Positions 56 to 32,488 of a stretch of 41,301 bases of DNA are shown here, piece by piece. Position 1 is the stretch's first letter, and every line of letters starts with the position of its first letter. Origin of the DNA: an uncultured Bacteriovoracaceae bacterium (GTDB lineage: Bacteria; Bdellovibrionota; Bacteriovoracia; Bacteriovoracales; Bacteriovoracaceae). Below the pieces are notes generated by a model. It was not told the DNA's origin, searched no databases, and saw only the letters and a list, made by a program, of their open reading frames with translations. The DNA lies in NCBI GenBank assembly GCA_950054155.1, contig CATLOT010000031.1, positions 1-41,301 of the forward strand, written 5' to 3'. A program made the translations under genes and the position numbers.

Positions 56-946
56 TTAGCTTTGAATTAGCGAGAAAAGATCAAAATTCAAAACTTTCGT
101 TCCCTCTGATGAATACGTAATTTCATCAGCTGAAGCCCTCTTTATTATTAAGGATAAGGGACGAAAGAGAAAGGGAAAATGGAAAACAATCCAATCCTTT
201 TCTGTGAGTAATGAACTTTTTTGCTCGGCCGTTGACTCGCATGCCACAAGGTCTTTATTGAGGTAAAAAACTTGGTGATTTCCAAGCTGTGAAAATGATT
301 CATTGGGGATGAGAAAGCTCTCCATTGTACCTGACAATTTCAGTGTCTTTTTATTATCAAGGGGCACCAGCACGCCTGCGTTCTCACTGTTCTTGAGGTG
401 ACAAGTAAACTTTATTGAAAAGCTCCCCTCCTCATTTGTCTCAAAGACTTTAAAGGTGAAGAGCATATTCTTTTTAAAGAATTTTCGTGTCAATTTATAG
501 GACTCTTCTCTCAACTCCTCAAAGTTAAGGTCATGAGGAATTTCTCCTGTTACAGAAAAACAATCATTATAAAGCCAAATTTTAATCGTCTTTTGAAATT
601 GAAAGAGCTTCGTCGCCTCACAGAGTAAGGGAAAGGTTTCGACGATATCATCTAATTGATCGAGGCTCGCATCATCTAAGCCATTAATCAGGTTAACCTG
701 ACAGCCAGCTCCTGCATTTCGAAAGAAATCCTTCACCTGATTCTTAAGCTCATTTTCAAAGAGACGAGTGAGATGACGAAAATCCTTCTTATCTAAAGAA
801 GGCTGATTTCTATTATTTTCAATTTCGTGGAAATGATAGTGAAGTCTTTCAATTAAAGGATAGAGGGAGGCATCTCCTAAACTATAGAGGTCCTCAAGAG
901 TACTAAGCCCTTGTTCTATGTTCGTCCTAAACAGAGAATCTCCCAC
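56..946 (-). CDS. Unknown protein at the end of the flagellar operon
   Basis: 296 aa, not recognised. I chose the GTG at 946 because AAAGGA lies six bases upstream; a TTG one codon earlier is too close to that site. It is soluble, with no signal peptide or membrane helix. The N-terminal part is helical and rich in charged and aromatic residues. The middle and C-terminal parts alternate short hydrophobic strands, suggesting a mixed alpha/beta or beta-rich domain. It begins 19 bases after the fliA stop on the same strand, so it should be co-transcribed with the flagellar genes. A role in motility, or in control of FliA or FlhG, is only a guess from position. Confidence 0.75.
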   Translation of the reverse strand: MGDSLFRTNIEQGLSTLEDLYSLGDASLYPLIERLHYHFHEIENNRNQPSLDKKDFRHLTRLFENELKNQVKDFFRNAGAGCQVNLINGLDDASLDQLDDIVETFPLLCEATKLFQFQKTIKIWLYNDCFSVTGEIPHDLNFEELREESYKLTRKFFKKNMLFTFKVFETNEEGSFSIKFTCHLKNSENAGVLVPLDNKKTLKLSGTMESFLIPNESFSQLGNHQVFYLNKDLVACESTAEQKSSLLTEKDWIVFHFPFLFRPLSLIIKRASADEITYSSEGTKVLNFDLFSLIQS

Positions 947-965
947 CAAAAATCCTTTAGTTTAT

Positions 966-1769: not shown

Positions 1770-2660
1770 TTAAATTGATTGAACTTCATGTTCTTGACTA
1801 AAACCTTGGATCCCATTGAGGAGAAAACCAAACTCGTCGCCCGTACCAATGTCTTTCTCGGTAAATTTATTAAGGACATTATTAAATGCGTTATTTATTT
1901 TCGAATCGGCAACTTTGAACAGTTCCCGATCAAATTGATCGATATTTTGATTATAAAAAGGTATTGCGCCCAATACTTCTAAGCGGCAATCAAGATACCT
2001 TTCGGCAGTTTCTAAGAAGGTTTTAGTTAAACGTTCAGTTTGTTTATCACCAGACACTTTATTAAAAATGAGATGGTGGTCACGCACTCCAAACTTATGA
2101 CTAAGAACCTTAATTAAGGAGTAGCTGTCAGTGATGGATGATTTATCAGGAGTAATGATGACAAAGCGATGATCACAGAAATTTGTTAAAGCACAAACCT
2201 CTTTTGTGAGTCCAGCAGGGCAATCGAGGACAACACTATCGTACTCAGCACCATGAGCAGTAATGACATCAATAACAAGTCTCTCTATCGCACAGTTTGA
2301 ATCGAAGAGATCAAAATTTCCATTACAGGCACTTAAGAGATGAAAATCGCCATCTTTATCGAGAGCTTCATCAAAAGATATCTTGCTTTGTAGGAGATCC
2401 CAGAACTTATCGGCGACAGGGAATCCCAGCTTCACTGCAGTGTTGGCAAGGTTATAGTCGCAATCGATAAGTAAAACCCGCTCCCCTCTAGCAACAAGGG
2501 TTTTTGCAAGTTTAATAGCAACAGAGGTCTTTCCAACTCCGCCCTTTCCACTTGCGACAGCGATTGTTTTTGTTCTTCTCTTGGGTGTGCGAAGGGCGAG
2601 AGTCCCTTCAAAATTCGAATTGTGGGAAAGTAACCACTCCCGGGGTGTCTTCCTTGACAT
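1770..2660 (-). CDS. flhG: FlhG (FleN/YlxH), MinD-like ATPase controlling flagellar number
   Basis: 296 aa. It is a deviant Walker A ATPase of the ParA/MinD family that works with FlhF to set flagellar number and place; in polar flagellates it limits the cell to one flagellum. The P-loop is SGKGGVGKTS at about residues 37-46. DCDYNLANT is the Walker A-prime region and VVLDCPAGL the Walker B region. The N-terminal MSRKTPREWLL stretch resembles the short segment ahead of the ATPase core that in FlhG contacts FlhF, although the usual DQA(x)2LR form is not obvious. Start: the ATG at 2660 has AGGAG five bases away, better than the in-frame ATG at 2681. It sits between flhF and fliA, the usual order. 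Confidence 0.94.
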   Translation of the reverse strand: MSRKTPREWLLSHNSNFEGTLALRTPKRRTKTIAVASGKGGVGKTSVAIKLAKTLVARGERVLLIDCDYNLANTAVKLGFPVADKFWDLLQSKISFDEALDKDGDFHLLSACNGNFDLFDSNCAIERLVIDVITAHGAEYDSVVLDCPAGLTKEVCALTNFCDHRFVIITPDKSSITDSYSLIKVLSHKFGVRDHHLIFNKVSGDKQTERLTKTFLETAERYLDCRLEVLGAIPFYNQNIDQFDRELFKVADSKINNAFNNVLNKFTEKDIGTGDEFGFLLNGIQGFSQEHEVQSI

Positions 2661-2708: not shown

Positions 2709-4166
2709 TTAGTTTAAATTAAACATTCCAGCTAAAATTCTTTCACCTGTCGCTGACTCAATATCCTCTGGAATCACTTCACCAGTTCCAAAGAACTTAA
2801 GGGGAAGGTTTGGAAATTCTTCACAGATATTAAAGAGAGCGCCATAGTTTAAACATAAATCAATATTCGTAATAATGAGACCGTCAGAAAGGTTCTGATA
2901 GGTCGAAACCACTCTTCTATTATAGATTTCAGAATGAATTGCCGAAAGGCAGACCATAACTTCCACGTTGCCAAATGATCGTCTTACACCATCGATGAAC
3001 TTCTTTGTGTCATTCAATTCAGTTTGGTTATTGCGATAGTCAACAATCACACTTTGACCCGCTTCTACTGACTTTCTAATAGCAGAAACGACCTCCGGAA
3101 TTGTGGTCACTTTCTGCACTTGGAGGTCAAACATATTTTCCGTGAAGGACTTATCCTTTCCTGGCTGATACTGAATGAGAACACTGTCCTTTTTGAGAGC
3201 ACCAAGTTTATAGAGCATTGAGGTTTGCCCACAACTGCTATCAGAGACAAGGACCGTCAGAAAAGGTGTCTCACTCCCCTCTAAGTTTGAAAACTGAGGC
3301 ATTGCCGTGGGAATGCGCTCTAGCATTTCCCTTAGGGCAAATTCAAAGACCACATCAATATCTTGAAGTTCTGATTCATTGAGTTCAAAGCTAGCTTTTT
3401 TAATGATTTCATTAACCGTAGTTTCTGCGATTGAGAGGCTTCTGAGCGTCGTTCTCAATTGAAATAACCCATGAGGCTCACGCTTATCAAGTCTTTCCAC
3501 ATTCTTCGTGAGTTCGTAGAGACGCTTTTCAAGCTCATCAATTTTCTTTCTTTGATCTTCAATCACTCTAGTATTCTCGTGAGAGCGTTCAGAGTTCTTT
3601 TCAATTTTAGGTTCAGCAATTTCTTCGAAGTGAAACTCTTCTTCCTCTTGATGTACTCTTGATACTGGCTCATGCTGTGCAGGTTTCATTTCTTGGCGAC
3701 TAGGAATCTCAACTTGAGAGGGACGGTGTCCTAGGGCCTGATCAGAAGCTCCACCAGAGAGAAAATCATCGAGACTATTTCTGACCTTGCCACCAAATTC
3801 TTTTACAGATTGCACCTGCTTATTAAGGCCCATATTGGCATATCCTTGTCCTTGCGTTGGCTCAGTATTATGGCCTTGCGAAGAGCGGTTATCAATATGC
3901 CCATCAATCATCTGACTAATATAATTGGAATTTCCCTCGTAGAATTTTTCTCTAGAGTCATCATCAAGAGACCGATCGACACGAGACTTACGAGTATAGT
4001 TCTTCTCGGAAATAGCAGCCGTAATTTCGACTCTATTCTTTTTGAAGGCGCCTTTTAGCCCTTTATTTGTCACTGTTTTGAGAATGATGGCGTCTGGGCC
4101 TAATTCTCTTTTAATTGATTTGAGCGCTTCGTCCAATGAATCGGCTTCAAATTTTCTCACATACAT
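2709..4166 (-). CDS. flhF: FlhF, SRP-type flagellar placement protein with lost GTPase motifs
   Basis: 485 aa. FlhF is the third SRP-type GTPase; it marks the site of flagellar assembly, usually the pole. The N-terminal B domain is normal (MYVRKFEADSLDEALKSIKR, then ELGPDAIILKT). A charged, low-complexity linker covers residues 60-200, followed by the helical N domain at about 200-290. The G domain (about 298-485) is recognisable by length and by its C-terminal end (FFGTGEVIPEDIESA), but its nucleotide motifs are gone. The P-loop reads VSDSSCGQTS instead of GxxGxGKT. The DTAG switch reads DYRNN. The TKxD specificity motif reads TNID. RBS GAGG lies seven bases before the ATG. One base separates it from flhA, so translation is coupled. 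It may bind nucleotide poorly or not at all. Confidence 0.93.
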   Translation of the reverse strand: MYVRKFEADSLDEALKSIKRELGPDAIILKTVTNKGLKGAFKKNRVEITAAISEKNYTRKSRVDRSLDDDSREKFYEGNSNYISQMIDGHIDNRSSQGHNTEPTQGQGYANMGLNKQVQSVKEFGGKVRNSLDDFLSGGASDQALGHRPSQVEIPSRQEMKPAQHEPVSRVHQEEEEFHFEEIAEPKIEKNSERSHENTRVIEDQRKKIDELEKRLYELTKNVERLDKREPHGLFQLRTTLRSLSIAETTVNEIIKKASFELNESELQDIDVVFEFALREMLERIPTAMPQFSNLEGSETPFLTVLVSDSSCGQTSMLYKLGALKKDSVLIQYQPGKDKSFTENMFDLQVQKVTTIPEVVSAIRKSVEAGQSVIVDYRNNQTELNDTKKFIDGVRRSFGNVEVMVCLSAIHSEIYNRRVVSTYQNLSDGLIITNIDLCLNYGALFNICEEFPNLPLKFFGTGEVIPEDIESATGERILAGMFNLN

Positions 4167-4167
4167 A

Positions 4168-6243
4168 CTACAACCTCACCGTCCCTAGTGATCTAATGTT
4201 AGCTTCTGGACTTAATTCGTTGTGGCTAACAACGACTAAGTTTGGAATAAATTTTTCTGTTAATCGCTTAAAGTGACCGCGAATAACTGGAGAGCAGAGC
4301 ACGACCATCTTCTCTCCCATATTAGTTGCCTCCTCAATCTTCTCATTCAAACTCGCAAGGATTGTCTGTGTCACTTTAGGGTCTAAAGAGACCTGCTGAC
4401 CTTGTTCTGTTTGAATAATATTTTGAGCAATCGACTCCTCAATTCCCCTATCTAAAGTAAAGAGTGGGATATCTCCCTGGTCTCCACTGATCGACTGAGT
4501 GATCGTTCTATACAGGGACTGCCTTACCATTTCTGTAAGAGAGTCCGTGTCCTTTATTGTAGCACCATACTCGGCCAGTGTCTCCAGAACTGTACGAAGA
4601 TCGCGAATTGACACGCCCTCTCTAAGCAAATTCTGTAAAACTTTCAGGACTTGTCCCATAGTTAAAATGTCGGGAATTAAGTCTGATACAATCTTCGGAT
4701 AATGTTCTTTAAACGTCTCTAAAAGACCCACTAATTCCTGACGACCGAAGAGCTCGTGAACGTTAGATTTGAGTATTTCAGTCAAGTGAGTCGCCATAAC
4801 AGTCGAGAGATCCACTACAGTATAACCATTGTACTGAGCATCCTCTTTTTGATCCTCACCAATCCACACAGCTGGAAGTCCGAAAACAGGCTCAGTCGTC
4901 TCAATTCCGTCCACTGGTTCAATAATCCCACCTGGGTCCATTGCAAGGTAGTGGTCAGTCATAAGATCGCCTTCTGCAACCTTAACACCTTTAATTTTAA
5001 CGTTATAGCCACCAGGCTTAAGCTCAAGATTATCTTTGATTCGTACACTAGGAATGATTACACCCCAGTCAATCGCAAATTGCTTACGGATATGAGTGAT
5101 CCTCTCAAGAAGATCACCATTTTGCTCAGAGTCCACCAGATTCACAAGACCATAACCAACCTCAAGCTCAACAAGTTCAAGACTGAGGAGATCCTCAAGG
5201 TTCTCAGGCTTCTCACTAACCTCTTCATTTTGAGCGCGCTTGGCATCTTCTTTTTCCTTAGCATCCCACTGCTCAATTTTGTAAGCAGTAGCCACTAATA
5301 TGAGCCCCATTGAAATAAAAGGAAGCTTGGGCAGACCTGGTATAGCAGCAAAGACAAGGAGTGTGCCAGCCGCCATATAAATAGCCTTGGGGTGAACTTT
5401 AAATTGTTTGCCAATTTGAGAGCCAAGATTATCATCACTTGTATTTCTTGTGGCGATAACACCAGCGGCAGTCGAAATGATGAGGGCTGGAATTTGAGAG
5501 ACGAGACCATCCCCAATTGTTAAGAGAGTGAAGACTCTCGTCGCTTCGTCTACGCCCATACCGTTTTGAGCAACGCCAACAATAATTCCACCGATAATGT
5601 TAACCGCAGTAATTAAAATACCTGCAATCGCATCACCGCGAACAAACTTACTCGCACCATCCATAGAACCGTAGAAGTCGGCTTCTTCAGCGACTTCACG
5701 TCTTCGCCGCTTCGCCTCTGAGTCATCAATAAGACCGGCGTTAAGGTCAGCATCAATCGCCATTTGCTTACCTGGCATCGCATCTAACGTAAATCGGGCT
5801 GCGACCTCAGCAACACGACCAGCACCCTTGGTGATAACCATAAAGTTGATAATCACAAGAATGATAAAGACGATAATACCGACAACGTAATTGCCTTCAA
5901 CGACGAACTCACCAAAGGAGCGAATAATTTCACCAGCGGCCTGTGTCCCTTCTCCACCACCACGCAGAAGAATATTTCTCGTTGAGGCCACGTTCAAACT
6001 CAACCTAAAGAGAGTTGTAACGAGAAGAACTGAAGGAAAAGTTGAGAAATCTAATGGCTTCTTACTATAAACAGAAACCAAAAGAATCATAATACTGATA
6101 CTGAGAGTTAGAGCGAGAAGAAGGTCAAGAAGCATTGGCGGGATCGGGACGATCATAACCGCTAAAATGAGAAGAAGTCCTACAGCGACGGTGAGATCCG
6201 AATTATCACTGAAGAAGCTGAATTTCTTGAAGAACCCATCCAT
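4168..6243 (-). CDS. flhA: FlhA, flagellar type III export gate
   Basis: 691 aa, normal length. FlhA forms a nonameric ring under the export gate, uses ion motive force for export and binds chaperone-substrate complexes with its cytosolic domain. About eight membrane helices fill residues 15-330. The FHIPEP family signature is intact at about 160-215 (DADLNAGLIDDSEAKRRRRE, FYGSMDGASKFVRGDAIAG). The cytosolic domain begins after a charged linker (EQWDAKEKEDAKRAQNEE) at about 322-345 and runs to the end. RBS AAGGA is nine bases before the ATG. It lies 24 bases after flhB. Confidence 0.98.
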   Translation of the reverse strand: MDGFFKKFSFFSDNSDLTVAVGLLLILAVMIVPIPPMLLDLLLALTLSISIMILLVSVYSKKPLDFSTFPSVLLVTTLFRLSLNVASTRNILLRGGGEGTQAAGEIIRSFGEFVVEGNYVVGIIVFIILVIINFMVITKGAGRVAEVAARFTLDAMPGKQMAIDADLNAGLIDDSEAKRRRREVAEEADFYGSMDGASKFVRGDAIAGILITAVNIIGGIIVGVAQNGMGVDEATRVFTLLTIGDGLVSQIPALIISTAAGVIATRNTSDDNLGSQIGKQFKVHPKAIYMAAGTLLVFAAIPGLPKLPFISMGLILVATAYKIEQWDAKEKEDAKRAQNEEVSEKPENLEDLLSLELVELEVGYGLVNLVDSEQNGDLLERITHIRKQFAIDWGVIIPSVRIKDNLELKPGGYNVKIKGVKVAEGDLMTDHYLAMDPGGIIEPVDGIETTEPVFGLPAVWIGEDQKEDAQYNGYTVVDLSTVMATHLTEILKSNVHELFGRQELVGLLETFKEHYPKIVSDLIPDILTMGQVLKVLQNLLREGVSIRDLRTVLETLAEYGATIKDTDSLTEMVRQSLYRTITQSISGDQGDIPLFTLDRGIEESIAQNIIQTEQGQQVSLDPKVTQTILASLNEKIEEATNMGEKMVVLCSPVIRGHFKRLTEKFIPNLVVVSHNELSPEANIRSLGTVRL

Positions 6244-29065: not shown

Positions 29066-30040
29066 ATGAGAAAGACCCTTCTCCTCTTAATGGCACTCGT
29101 TTTTTCCATAGGCACTTTTCGTTTCTTCTCCCAAAGAAACAAAGGTCCTGTTCAAACTGCTGATGAAACGCTTGCACCTGTCGAGACACAACCAAAAGAA
29201 ATACCTTCACCTCAAAAGAAAACACCGATCAAGACAACCCCAAAACAAAGCAAGGCTCAGCTTTCAAAAAAAGCAATTCCAGCTAGGGATCAATCACAGG
29301 TTCTTGAAACTCTAGAGTCACGCCATCTCGCCAACACTGATGAGGACGGCGTTATTTACCCCACCTCCCTCACCGTTGATGGTGAGCACGTCGTCGCCTA
29401 TGGAGACCTCATCGTGGGTCATTCTCGCTTTGTTGAGGACTATCAAAATGGAGAGAAGCAAATTACCCTGCCACCCCCTCAAACGTGGCCACAAGGTATC
29501 ATTCCTTATCGAACACAAGGAATTACGACTGAGCAAGAAAGGGCGATTGAATCCATTGCACGTGTTCTTGAAGATGAGGCCAATATCAAGCTTATTCCCT
29601 ACACAAGTGGCATGAAGGCGTGGGTAACCTTTAAGCAAGGGAGTGAGCACTGCTACGCTCAAGTGGGTTACGCAGAAGGTGAGCGCGCCGTCAGTCTTAA
29701 TGAAAAGTGTAACTATGAAGCAATCTTTCACGAGATCTTCCATGTCCTTGGCTTTTATCACGAGCAAAATCGCTTTGATCGAGATGAGCATCTCCAAATC
29801 ATCTGGGAAAATATCGACGAGCAACACTGGCCTCAATTTGAAAAGTTCTCCAAACGCAGCTATCCCAAAGCATTACAAGAGACGGAGTTTACGACCCAAT
29901 CTTTCATGCTCTATCCGCCTACCACCTTCAGTAACTCCCAGGATTACTCCATCGTTCAAAGAGATGGAACGCCCTACCAATCACCTGTCAGTCCCTCGCC
30001 TGTAGACTTTGAGAGGTTACGTCTCCTATATCGCCCATAA
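29066..30040 (+). CDS. Astacin-family (M12A) secreted zinc metalloprotease
   Basis: 324 aa. An N-terminal signal (MRKTLLLLMALVFSIGTF) and a Pro/Lys/Thr-rich linker (about 27-85) lead to the protease domain. The zinc motif is at residues 222-232 (HEIFHVLGFYH), continuing EQNRFDRDE as in astacins. The Met-turn reads SFMLYPP where most members have SxMHY. It is probably exported and may digest prey or matrix protein. RBS AAGG lies about eight bases upstream. The hppA terminator is so close that its own promoter must lie in or before that hairpin, or it is expressed by read-through. Confidence 0.92.
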   Translation: MRKTLLLLMALVFSIGTFRFFSQRNKGPVQTADETLAPVETQPKEIPSPQKKTPIKTTPKQSKAQLSKKAIPARDQSQVLETLESRHLANTDEDGVIYPTSLTVDGEHVVAYGDLIVGHSRFVEDYQNGEKQITLPPPQTWPQGIIPYRTQGITTEQERAIESIARVLEDEANIKLIPYTSGMKAWVTFKQGSEHCYAQVGYAEGERAVSLNEKCNYEAIFHEIFHVLGFYHEQNRFDRDEHLQIIWENIDEQHWPQFEKFSKRSYPKALQETEFTTQSFMLYPPTTFSNSQDYSIVQRDGTPYQSPVSPSPVDFERLRLLYRP

Positions 30041-30106
30041 ATTGGGCCACTCTCTGAGAAGCATTTCAAAGACTTAGCTAAAAGAATCAAAAAAATTACC
30101 TTAGTA

Positions 30107-30121
30107 GCCGATAATGGATGC
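30107..30121 (+). promoter_or_regulatory. Possible promoter directly before the L,D-transpeptidase-like gene
   Basis: GCCGATAAT ends six bases before the ATG. It matches a perfect sigma-28 -10 box (GCCGATAA) and a sigma-70 -10 box (GATAAT). No good -35 box is seen. If used, the transcript would start at or next to the ATG. Confidence 0.35.
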
Positions 30122-32488
30122 ATGTCTAAGAAGATTTTAATCGCCCTTCTTTTTTCATTTTCTCTTTTTGCTCAAAATCAGCAAAATATGGAGCAGTATG
30201 CTCGAGAAATTTATCAGAAAACGGGCTTAGGAAATCGAGTTCCCTTTGAGCACTTTCAGGCGGGCTACTATCGTTATCTTGAGGGCAAGAGAAATGGTGA
30301 ATTTAGAAAGCCTGTCATCACCTTTGTAAACTTCAATATTCATAACGGACAAAAGAGACTCTTTCTCACTGATGTCAGTGGTTCTGGCGCAGGTCTTGTT
30401 TTTGAGTCCTATGTTGGCCATGGTGTTAACTCTGACAGTGGTGGAAACTCCGTAGACTTTGGCAATGTTCCCGAGTCAAAGAAATCATCTCTCGGCTTTT
30501 TCAAAGTTGCCGAGGATTACACTGGTAAGTATGGATACTCACTAAGGGTTGATGGACTTTCCGATCAACTCAATGGCAATGCTCGTTCGAGAGCGATCGT
30601 TTTTCACCCTTCTCACTACTCAACGTTAAAGGTTATTGAGAGCATGGGCAGAATGGGAAATAGCTGGGGTTGCTTCACCATCCCCTATGCTTATAGAGAT
30701 TCGCTCTTTGCCGCAATCAAGAACGGTACTCTTCTCTATGCTTTTCATTCAAGTATGGACACCCCGAGAATAAGCGCAGAAGGTCTTGTGGAAGTTGCGA
30801 TGGCCGATAACTCTCCCTCTGGGCTTAGTGTTACGCCTGGAGATGAACTCCCCACCCTTAGTGATATGTATGAATATGAAGGTAATTCTTCCCTTATGGC
30901 CCAAGGACTTGCTGGCGATCATATGGGCCTTAGTCCAGGAGAGGGAATCGATGGCATGAACTCTATTGATTATGATGGCGATGGGGAGCCAGATGGTTTT
31001 GATCCTCTTAATCCCAACGCCGAACAAAACGGAGATGCTCCCTATCACGGCAGCAAGGATTTTGAAGCTTGCCAATCGTACGCCAACAAAAAATGGGATC
31101 AAGTCGCTGGCTCTAATCCCAGTGACACCTATAAAGGTTCATGGCCTGATCTAGAAAGTAAAATCTCAAGGAGTGAAAATATCCACTTTAGTGCGGCTCA
31201 GGCTGCGGGTGAAAATCATCTCGGCAAAGTGAGAGAATGTGCTGCTGTCTCTTATGTTGCCGACCCCTCTAACTTTGAGCTTGATAACCCCAATCAACAG
31301 CAGACTTACAAATCAGCCGATGGAAAAATTGAATGTCAGTATCTCAATGCCGAGGTTGTCGACTATAGTTCCTGTAAGAACCTTGTTGATACCCACAATA
31401 AGTTTCTAAAAGAAGAACAGCAAATGTATGCCAATCAAAAAGACTCCTATCAAGCTTCCGGAGAAAAGCAGGTTGCTGGTCTTCAAGATAATATTAATAT
31501 TCAAGGAAATAGTGCTCTTGTCGCAAGCGCCCTAACAACAGAGGCTAAGGGAATCGCGGCTGAGCGTGAAGCCTTTCAAAAAGCACGTATTGAAGCGATG
31601 ACGACAGCTGTCGCGGCGATGCCTACCTATCGCTCACTCCTTCAAAAGTGTAATGAGAAGCATCAGCAAAACCCCGACGTCGGAGTTGCCGATTACGCTA
31701 ACTTTACCAAGACCATCCCAGATCTCAAGCTCAGCGTTCCCAGTCTTAAGAATCCTTGTCCGGCAGCTCTTGGAAGATTGAATATTTCCTATCTTCAAAA
31801 TAGAAAAGCAAAAGAGCAAGCGATGAAAGTTATTGAAGAGCTCGGGGGAAAAGTGACAACACTTCAAGGTCAGCAAGAAACTCTTGGTAAAAGAAGTAAA
31901 GAGATGGGAAGTGTCGGAAATGCTAATGGCGTTGATTATGACAATATGAAGCTCAAGGCCTTCAATGAAGTTGACGCTGCTGAGAATGATGAAAGTGAGC
32001 TTCAAAAACTCAAAGGCTCATCTGATACCTCATACAACACGGCCTATAAAACTTATCGCGCTCCCACATCTTTAAACACAAATTTTGCTTCGGGACGGAG
32101 AAAAGAGATTTATAGTGACAGTGGCTTTAACTCTAATGCTTACCTTAGCCAGCTCAAGAATAACTCCTTTAAGTTCTTTAAATCAGCGGCCAAAGACAAG
32201 CCACAGAAAGTCTTAAAATTTATGAAGTCCTATGGACTCTCCCTTGATGATATCGAGTTCGCCTACCGTGCCGGAAAAATTAGCAAAGAGAGACGGGACT
32301 TTCTTATGGCTAAACTCAAAGGCCGCGTAGGCACATCAAATCGCGAGCGGCAGGTAGATTTCCCATCCCTGCGCAGCACAAAAAAAGGCAAAGGCGATTA
32401 TCAAATTGAAAAAAATAAGGGAAGAGATCTCTTTGAGATCATATCCCATCGTTATCTCAAACAAAATCACCTCTTCAGCAGTTATTAA
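30122..32488 (+). CDS. Large L,D-transpeptidase-family (YkuD_2) secreted protein
   Basis: 788 aa. The signal peptide is MSKKILIALLFSFSLFAQ. Residues about 60-215 match the murein L,D-transpeptidase family YkuD_2: ESYVGHGVNSDSGG, SSLGFFKV, YGYSLRVDGLSDQLNGNA, RAIVFHPSHY and GNSWGCFTIP with the likely catalytic C184. A calcium-loop-like DYDGDGEPDGFDPLNPNAEQ is at about 283-302. From about 420 to 650 it is a long helical, coiled-coil-like region rich in Gln, Lys and Glu, then a basic tail. The added parts are unusual, since most members are about 200-300 aa. It may alter the wall of predator or prey. No good ribosome site is seen. Confidence 0.88.
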   Translation: MSKKILIALLFSFSLFAQNQQNMEQYAREIYQKTGLGNRVPFEHFQAGYYRYLEGKRNGEFRKPVITFVNFNIHNGQKRLFLTDVSGSGAGLVFESYVGHGVNSDSGGNSVDFGNVPESKKSSLGFFKVAEDYTGKYGYSLRVDGLSDQLNGNARSRAIVFHPSHYSTLKVIESMGRMGNSWGCFTIPYAYRDSLFAAIKNGTLLYAFHSSMDTPRISAEGLVEVAMADNSPSGLSVTPGDELPTLSDMYEYEGNSSLMAQGLAGDHMGLSPGEGIDGMNSIDYDGDGEPDGFDPLNPNAEQNGDAPYHGSKDFEACQSYANKKWDQVAGSNPSDTYKGSWPDLESKISRSENIHFSAAQAAGENHLGKVRECAAVSYVADPSNFELDNPNQQQTYKSADGKIECQYLNAEVVDYSSCKNLVDTHNKFLKEEQQMYANQKDSYQASGEKQVAGLQDNINIQGNSALVASALTTEAKGIAAEREAFQKARIEAMTTAVAAMPTYRSLLQKCNEKHQQNPDVGVADYANFTKTIPDLKLSVPSLKNPCPAALGRLNISYLQNRKAKEQAMKVIEELGGKVTTLQGQQETLGKRSKEMGSVGNANGVDYDNMKLKAFNEVDAAENDESELQKLKGSSDTSYNTAYKTYRAPTSLNTNFASGRRKEIYSDSGFNSNAYLSQLKNNSFKFFKSAAKDKPQKVLKFMKSYGLSLDDIEFAYRAGKISKERRDFLMAKLKGRVGTSNRERQVDFPSLRSTKKGKGDYQIEKNKGRDLFEIISHRYLKQNHLFSSY

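Follow-up and report, generated by a model that had tools for sequence, protein, structure and literature searches.

Can a protein that lacks the motifs of an SRP-type GTPase still be a true FlhF, and can flagella then be placed without a GTP switch? Model species differ in how far FlhF function depends on GTP, and the matter is not settled. The question is raised here by gene flhF (positions 2709–4166, minus strand) from the window, a stretch of 41,301 nt from an uncultured Bacteriovoracaceae bacterium. As a sequence-only reading had stated, the gene is intact; it has an ATG start, no internal stop and a deduced product of 485 aa. It is flanked upstream by flhA (4168–6243, minus strand), which served as a marker for synteny and for tree building, and on the other side by flhG (1770–2660, minus strand), in the flhA-flhF-flhG order that typifies FlhF orthologs, with a gene for a FliA-like sigma factor coming next; FliG is encoded in the same genome. 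Immediately 3′ of fliA, the flagellar operon contains a 297-aa ORF without a Pfam match (59–949, minus strand) and, elsewhere in the window, a gene for a large L,D-transpeptidase-domain protein adjoins that for an astacin-type metalloprotease (together 29066–32485, plus strand).

Comparison with the NCBIfam FlhF model (TIGR03499) yielded 61.9 bits, below the equivalog cut-off of 174.15, which was passed by none of 129 genomes of the family. The match spanned positions 1–187 of the model (E 9.6e-17), revealing N-terminal B/FID homology to FlhF; this, together with a profile alignment, bears out the earlier claim that the B domain is kept. The Pfam SRP54 model (PF00448) matched with 27.5 bits (cut-off 22.7) over the C-terminal half of the protein only. 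Residues 1–60 (3987–4166, minus strand), which form the N-terminal part of the B domain at the position of the FliG-interacting domain (FID), are the most conserved part of the protein, with a mean column conservation of 0.83 and a predicted beta-alpha-beta-beta arrangement. They are followed by a variable, mostly disordered linker (residues 61–195; 3582–3986, minus strand; conservation 0.30) and by an NG domain with an SRP-GTPase fold, as assigned with VIA and Foldseek (residues 229–485; 2712–3482, minus strand). In an AlphaFold2 model that drew on 29 sequences of the family, the NG core was confident (block pLDDT mostly 80–94), the linker was disordered, with pLDDT below 50 for residues 92–191, and residues 460–485 were of low confidence. 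A search of the PDB by sequence retrieved no meaningful relative, whereas the search by structure did: the best Foldseek matches of the model were SRP GTPases, including FlhF 8r9r (top match), 2px3 and 2px0 (E 1.4e-10 to 1.7e-8), and VIA gave Z scores of 17.6–17.8, with an rmsd of 3.1–3.5 over 215–225 residues, reaching 17.8 for both Bacillus subtilis FlhF (2px3) and Shewanella putrefaciens FlhF (8r9r). The SRP-type NG fold is therefore kept and, together with the FlhA-FlhF-FlhG synteny, confirms that the product is an orthologous FlhF.

A profile-profile alignment of 70 family FlhF rows with intact FlhF from the phylum's other families (100% probability, E 1.8e-48, 404 columns) placed the remnants recognized in the sequence-only reading exactly on motifs G1, G3 and G4. 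SDSSCGQTS (residues 308–316; 3219–3245, minus strand) pairs with the G1 motif, or P-loop, GPTGVGKTT and has Q314 in place of the Lys; DYRNN (376–380; 3027–3041, minus strand) pairs with the G3 motif DTTGR, of which the Asp alone is kept; and TNID (433–436; 2859–2870, minus strand) pairs with the G4 motif SKLD, with loss of the Lys and an invariant D436. The G2/insertion-box position (about residues 331–345; 3132–3176, minus strand), which reads DTYKVAAADQL in relatives, is replaced by the shortened IQYQPGKDKSFTENM. Conversely, the closing G5-like motif GTGEVIPEDIE (2757–2789, minus strand) is retained and pairs with VGQRVPEDIE of intact FlhF; the sequence-only reading had noted the C-terminal end as kept. 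The claim that all the GTPase motifs are replaced was slightly too strong, since G313, Thr/Ser315 (Mg site), D376 (Walker-B), D436 (G4), G462 and P466-D468-E470 (G5-like loop) are still present. No intact P-loop or TKxD was found elsewhere in the protein. A second, intact FlhF in the same genome was also discarded: full SRP-type domains occur only in Ffh and FtsY, and a third PF00448 match covers only the P-loop region of another kind of ATPase.

Matches to FlhF, including those from Bacteriovorax, Halobacteriovorax and Bacteriovoracaceae, were found in 119 of the 129 genomes of the family Bacteriovoracaceae, which here equals the whole order Bacteriovoracales. FlhA is likewise missing from nine of the ten genomes without FlhF and is matched only in part in the remaining one, from which we conclude that FlhF tracks flagella. 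Residues were counted on 76 distinct family sequences, about 50 family genomes lying outside this residue-by-residue reading. All 76 have Gln in place of the P-loop Lys, whereas the Lys is kept in 60 out of 60 scored sequences from the other families of the phylum (f2–f29; one further row is a fragment without the P-loop site), so the loss expected among related genomes is family-wide and far beyond chance. Neither the G1 consensus GxxGxGK[ST] (Lys in 0/76) nor those of G3 (DTxG; Thr in 0/76, Gly in 2/76) and G4 ([TS]KxD; Lys in 2/76) is maintained and, overall, the family has lost 26 G-domain positions that at least 95% of intact FlhF sequences share, among them the P-loop glycines and Lys, the G3 Thr and Gly, and the G4 Lys.

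The altered domain is itself conserved. Q314, D436 and G462 occur in 76/76 sequences, D376 in 75/76 and Thr/Ser315 in 72/76; residues retained in the family also include G313, K320, G442, N446, P455, P466, D468 and E470. Fourteen positions are fixed, in at least 90% of sequences, to new residues, including S308, Q314, R364, I410, E413, Y415, N416, Y423, C438 and F458. Within the genus, pN/pS values, which are only indicative because dS is near saturation, were 0.01–0.07 for residues 1–60, 0.43–0.67 for the linker, 0.17–0.31 for residues 196–300 and 0.09–0.29 for the G domain, the latter as low as or lower than those of the FlhG core (0.23–0.33). The G domain of FlhF is under purifying selection, and the loss of its motifs is not decay.

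In known systems, FlhG contributes a co-catalytic Gln to the FlhF GTPase from its N-terminal DQAxxLR helix (PMC12826062), and this motif therefore offers an independent test of a pseudo-GTPase FlhF. It was present in none of 73 distinct family FlhG sequences, whereas the motif or a close form (DQAxNLR) occurs in relatives with an intact FlhF (L139, L142, L146, L152, L156, L161, L163 and L208). In its place, 72 of the 73 family sequences have a WL pair within a short element at the N terminus, here MSRKTPREWLLSHNS (2616–2660, minus strand), a lineage-specific motif in which W9 and L10 are invariant across 26 aligned FlhG; residues 6–12 are predicted, with low confidence, to form a helix, after which a disordered linker leads to the MinD core. 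The description of this FlhG as normal thus holds for its MinD-type ATPase core, which is intact and has the deviant Walker A KGGVGKT, but not for the FlhF-activating element. The listed start of the flhG ORF at 2681 is probably seven codons too early; the ATG at 2660, which is preceded by AGGAGA and where FlhG of relatives begins, is the best placed and yields a protein of 296 aa. Within the family, the WL motif is missing from FlhG of L083 alone (genome G072), whose neighboring FlhF is among the most divergent and is also changed at C438 and at the PDDIE end, a single hint that the WL motif and these FlhF elements depend on each other. Loss of DQAxxLR alone is no proof of GTPase loss, because Pseudomonas FleN does not have the motif either, nor do Bdellovibrio relatives whose FlhF P-loop is intact.

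A quick FlhA tree (SH-aLRT support only, arbitrary root) placed the family on a long branch beside families f20/f21 (support 96), which have an intact FlhF and an FlhG without DQAxxLR. The Bdellovibrio-like families formed a separate group. The simplest story, with an order taken from one gene, begins with loss of the FlhG activator, followed by a single loss of the FlhF GTPase motifs on the family stem. Like the family studied here, Bdellovibrio-type families (f2–f12) lack DQAxxLR in FlhG and have an FlhF with an altered G3 and often without the G4 Lys; unlike it, they retain GK[ST] in the P-loop and, in most cases, the G2 segment, so their FlhF is at most partly eroded. This pattern, with TKxD often changed to T[GHSA]xD and a changed DTAG, was seen in L147, L148, L157, L158, L160, L162, L164, L209–L211 and L165/L195. 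Judged from these motifs, the Bdellovibrio-type FlhF/FlhG pair is a putative partly eroded switch, of which we found no description in the open-access literature. In family f22 (L168, L204 and L205), FlhF has an intact P-loop and a replaced G2 (e.g., VVGEETVDPL instead of DTYKVAAADQL), possibly a separate partial loss.

Together, these comparisons suggest, with a probability of about 0.7, that the true FlhF of Bacteriovoracales became a conserved pseudo-GTPase, most likely acting as a tether free of a nucleotide cycle. The family protein would have lost both binding and hydrolysis of GTP; because it is conserved in spite of its motif loss, and FlhG changed in step, the flagellum is probably placed without a GTP switch, as the sequence-only reading had anticipated. 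FlhF of S. putrefaciens binds FliG through its FID and, independently of nucleotide, the polar landmark HubP through its NG domain (PMC11236974). These two parts are conserved in the protein studied here, whose genome encodes FliG, and we infer a static tether. The FimV/HubP core model matched neither this genome nor any of the control genomes and is therefore uninformative. The FID would hold FliG and, via FliG, FliF, while protein contacts would let the fossil NG domain dock both at the pole and with FlhG. The latter remains an ATPase and may set flagellum number through its own ATP cycle, which would provide the dynamics around a static FlhF, and its rebuilt, non-catalytic N-terminal helix may regulate without triggering GTP hydrolysis. 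More tentatively, the former active site could now be a docking or ligand site around the invariant Gln to which the WL helix of FlhG binds, with the number and placement of polar flagella depending on the FlhG ATPase alone; we consider this extension possible but rather doubtful.

The retention of Thr/Ser315, D376, D436 and the G5-like loop argues against a complete loss of function in the pocket, since some ligand binding could survive. The pocket might have been remodeled, its GQ[ST] loop, with D376 and D436, binding a different ligand, such as a second messenger or a nucleotide bound chiefly through Mg and its base, so that FlhF would still be ligand-gated without classical hydrolysis. Pure loss would be expected to allow drift, and the near invariance of these residues and of Q314 and G462, as well as that of the new Y415, N416 and C438 in other segments of the G domain, fits such a pocket. 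SRP GTPases hold the phosphate and the base with G2, the P-loop glycines, TAG and the G4 Lys. All of these are gone, and a protein interface could equally account for the invariance, making a remodeled pocket unlikely. It is still less probable that FlhF is divergent but active, with weak GTP binding and GTP-dependent dimerization: the whole family has lost the P-loop Lys together with G2, the Gly of G3 and the Lys of G4, and it also lacks the FlhG activator motif, even if some Mg and base residues are kept and Bdellovibrio relatives do without the G4 Lys while their P-loop is intact. In Pseudomonas aeruginosa, FlhF contacts FliG under the control of GTP binding (PMC12713375), which suggests that nucleotide binding is hard to drop and argues against a nucleotide-free tether. 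Finally, a decaying pseudogene or an artifact of annotation or alignment, for which we found no supporting point, can be rejected because almost all of the 119 matching genomes have an open frame, with a single TAG in the full-length matches, length is conserved, pN/pS is well below 1, and both the invariant residues and the profile alignment speak against it.

As a conserved pseudo-GTPase, the FlhF of this family would represent a natural experiment in which tethering can be told apart from switching, in a mostly predatory lineage that keeps the protein under strong selection after loss of the GTPase motifs and of the FlhG activator. The lineage includes species described with one polar flagellum: Bacteriovorax stolpii and B. 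starrii, which may not be among the genomes compared, have a single polar sheathed flagellum (PMC7175336). Cultivable predators (Halobacteriovorax, Bacteriovorax) make the system testable. In the open-access literature we found no case of an SRP-type pseudo-GTPase, and no paper naming FlhF together with Bacteriovorax or with the term pseudo-GTPase; this appears to be an undescribed case within the SRP family. Pseudo-GTPases are known among degenerate septins (PMC10731463) and p190RhoGAP domains (PMC5593906), which, as with this FlhF, keep the GTPase fold for protein-protein roles after motif loss, but are eukaryotic and not of the SRP type. With known FlhF (TIGR03499; B. subtilis 2PX3/2PX0 and S. 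putrefaciens 8R9R), the protein shares the order of FID, linker, N and G domains and the NG fold, as well as the flhA-flhF-flhG-fliA gene order and the G5-like PEDIE end, whereas it differs from them in its low score against the model and in the family-wide loss of motifs G1–G4.
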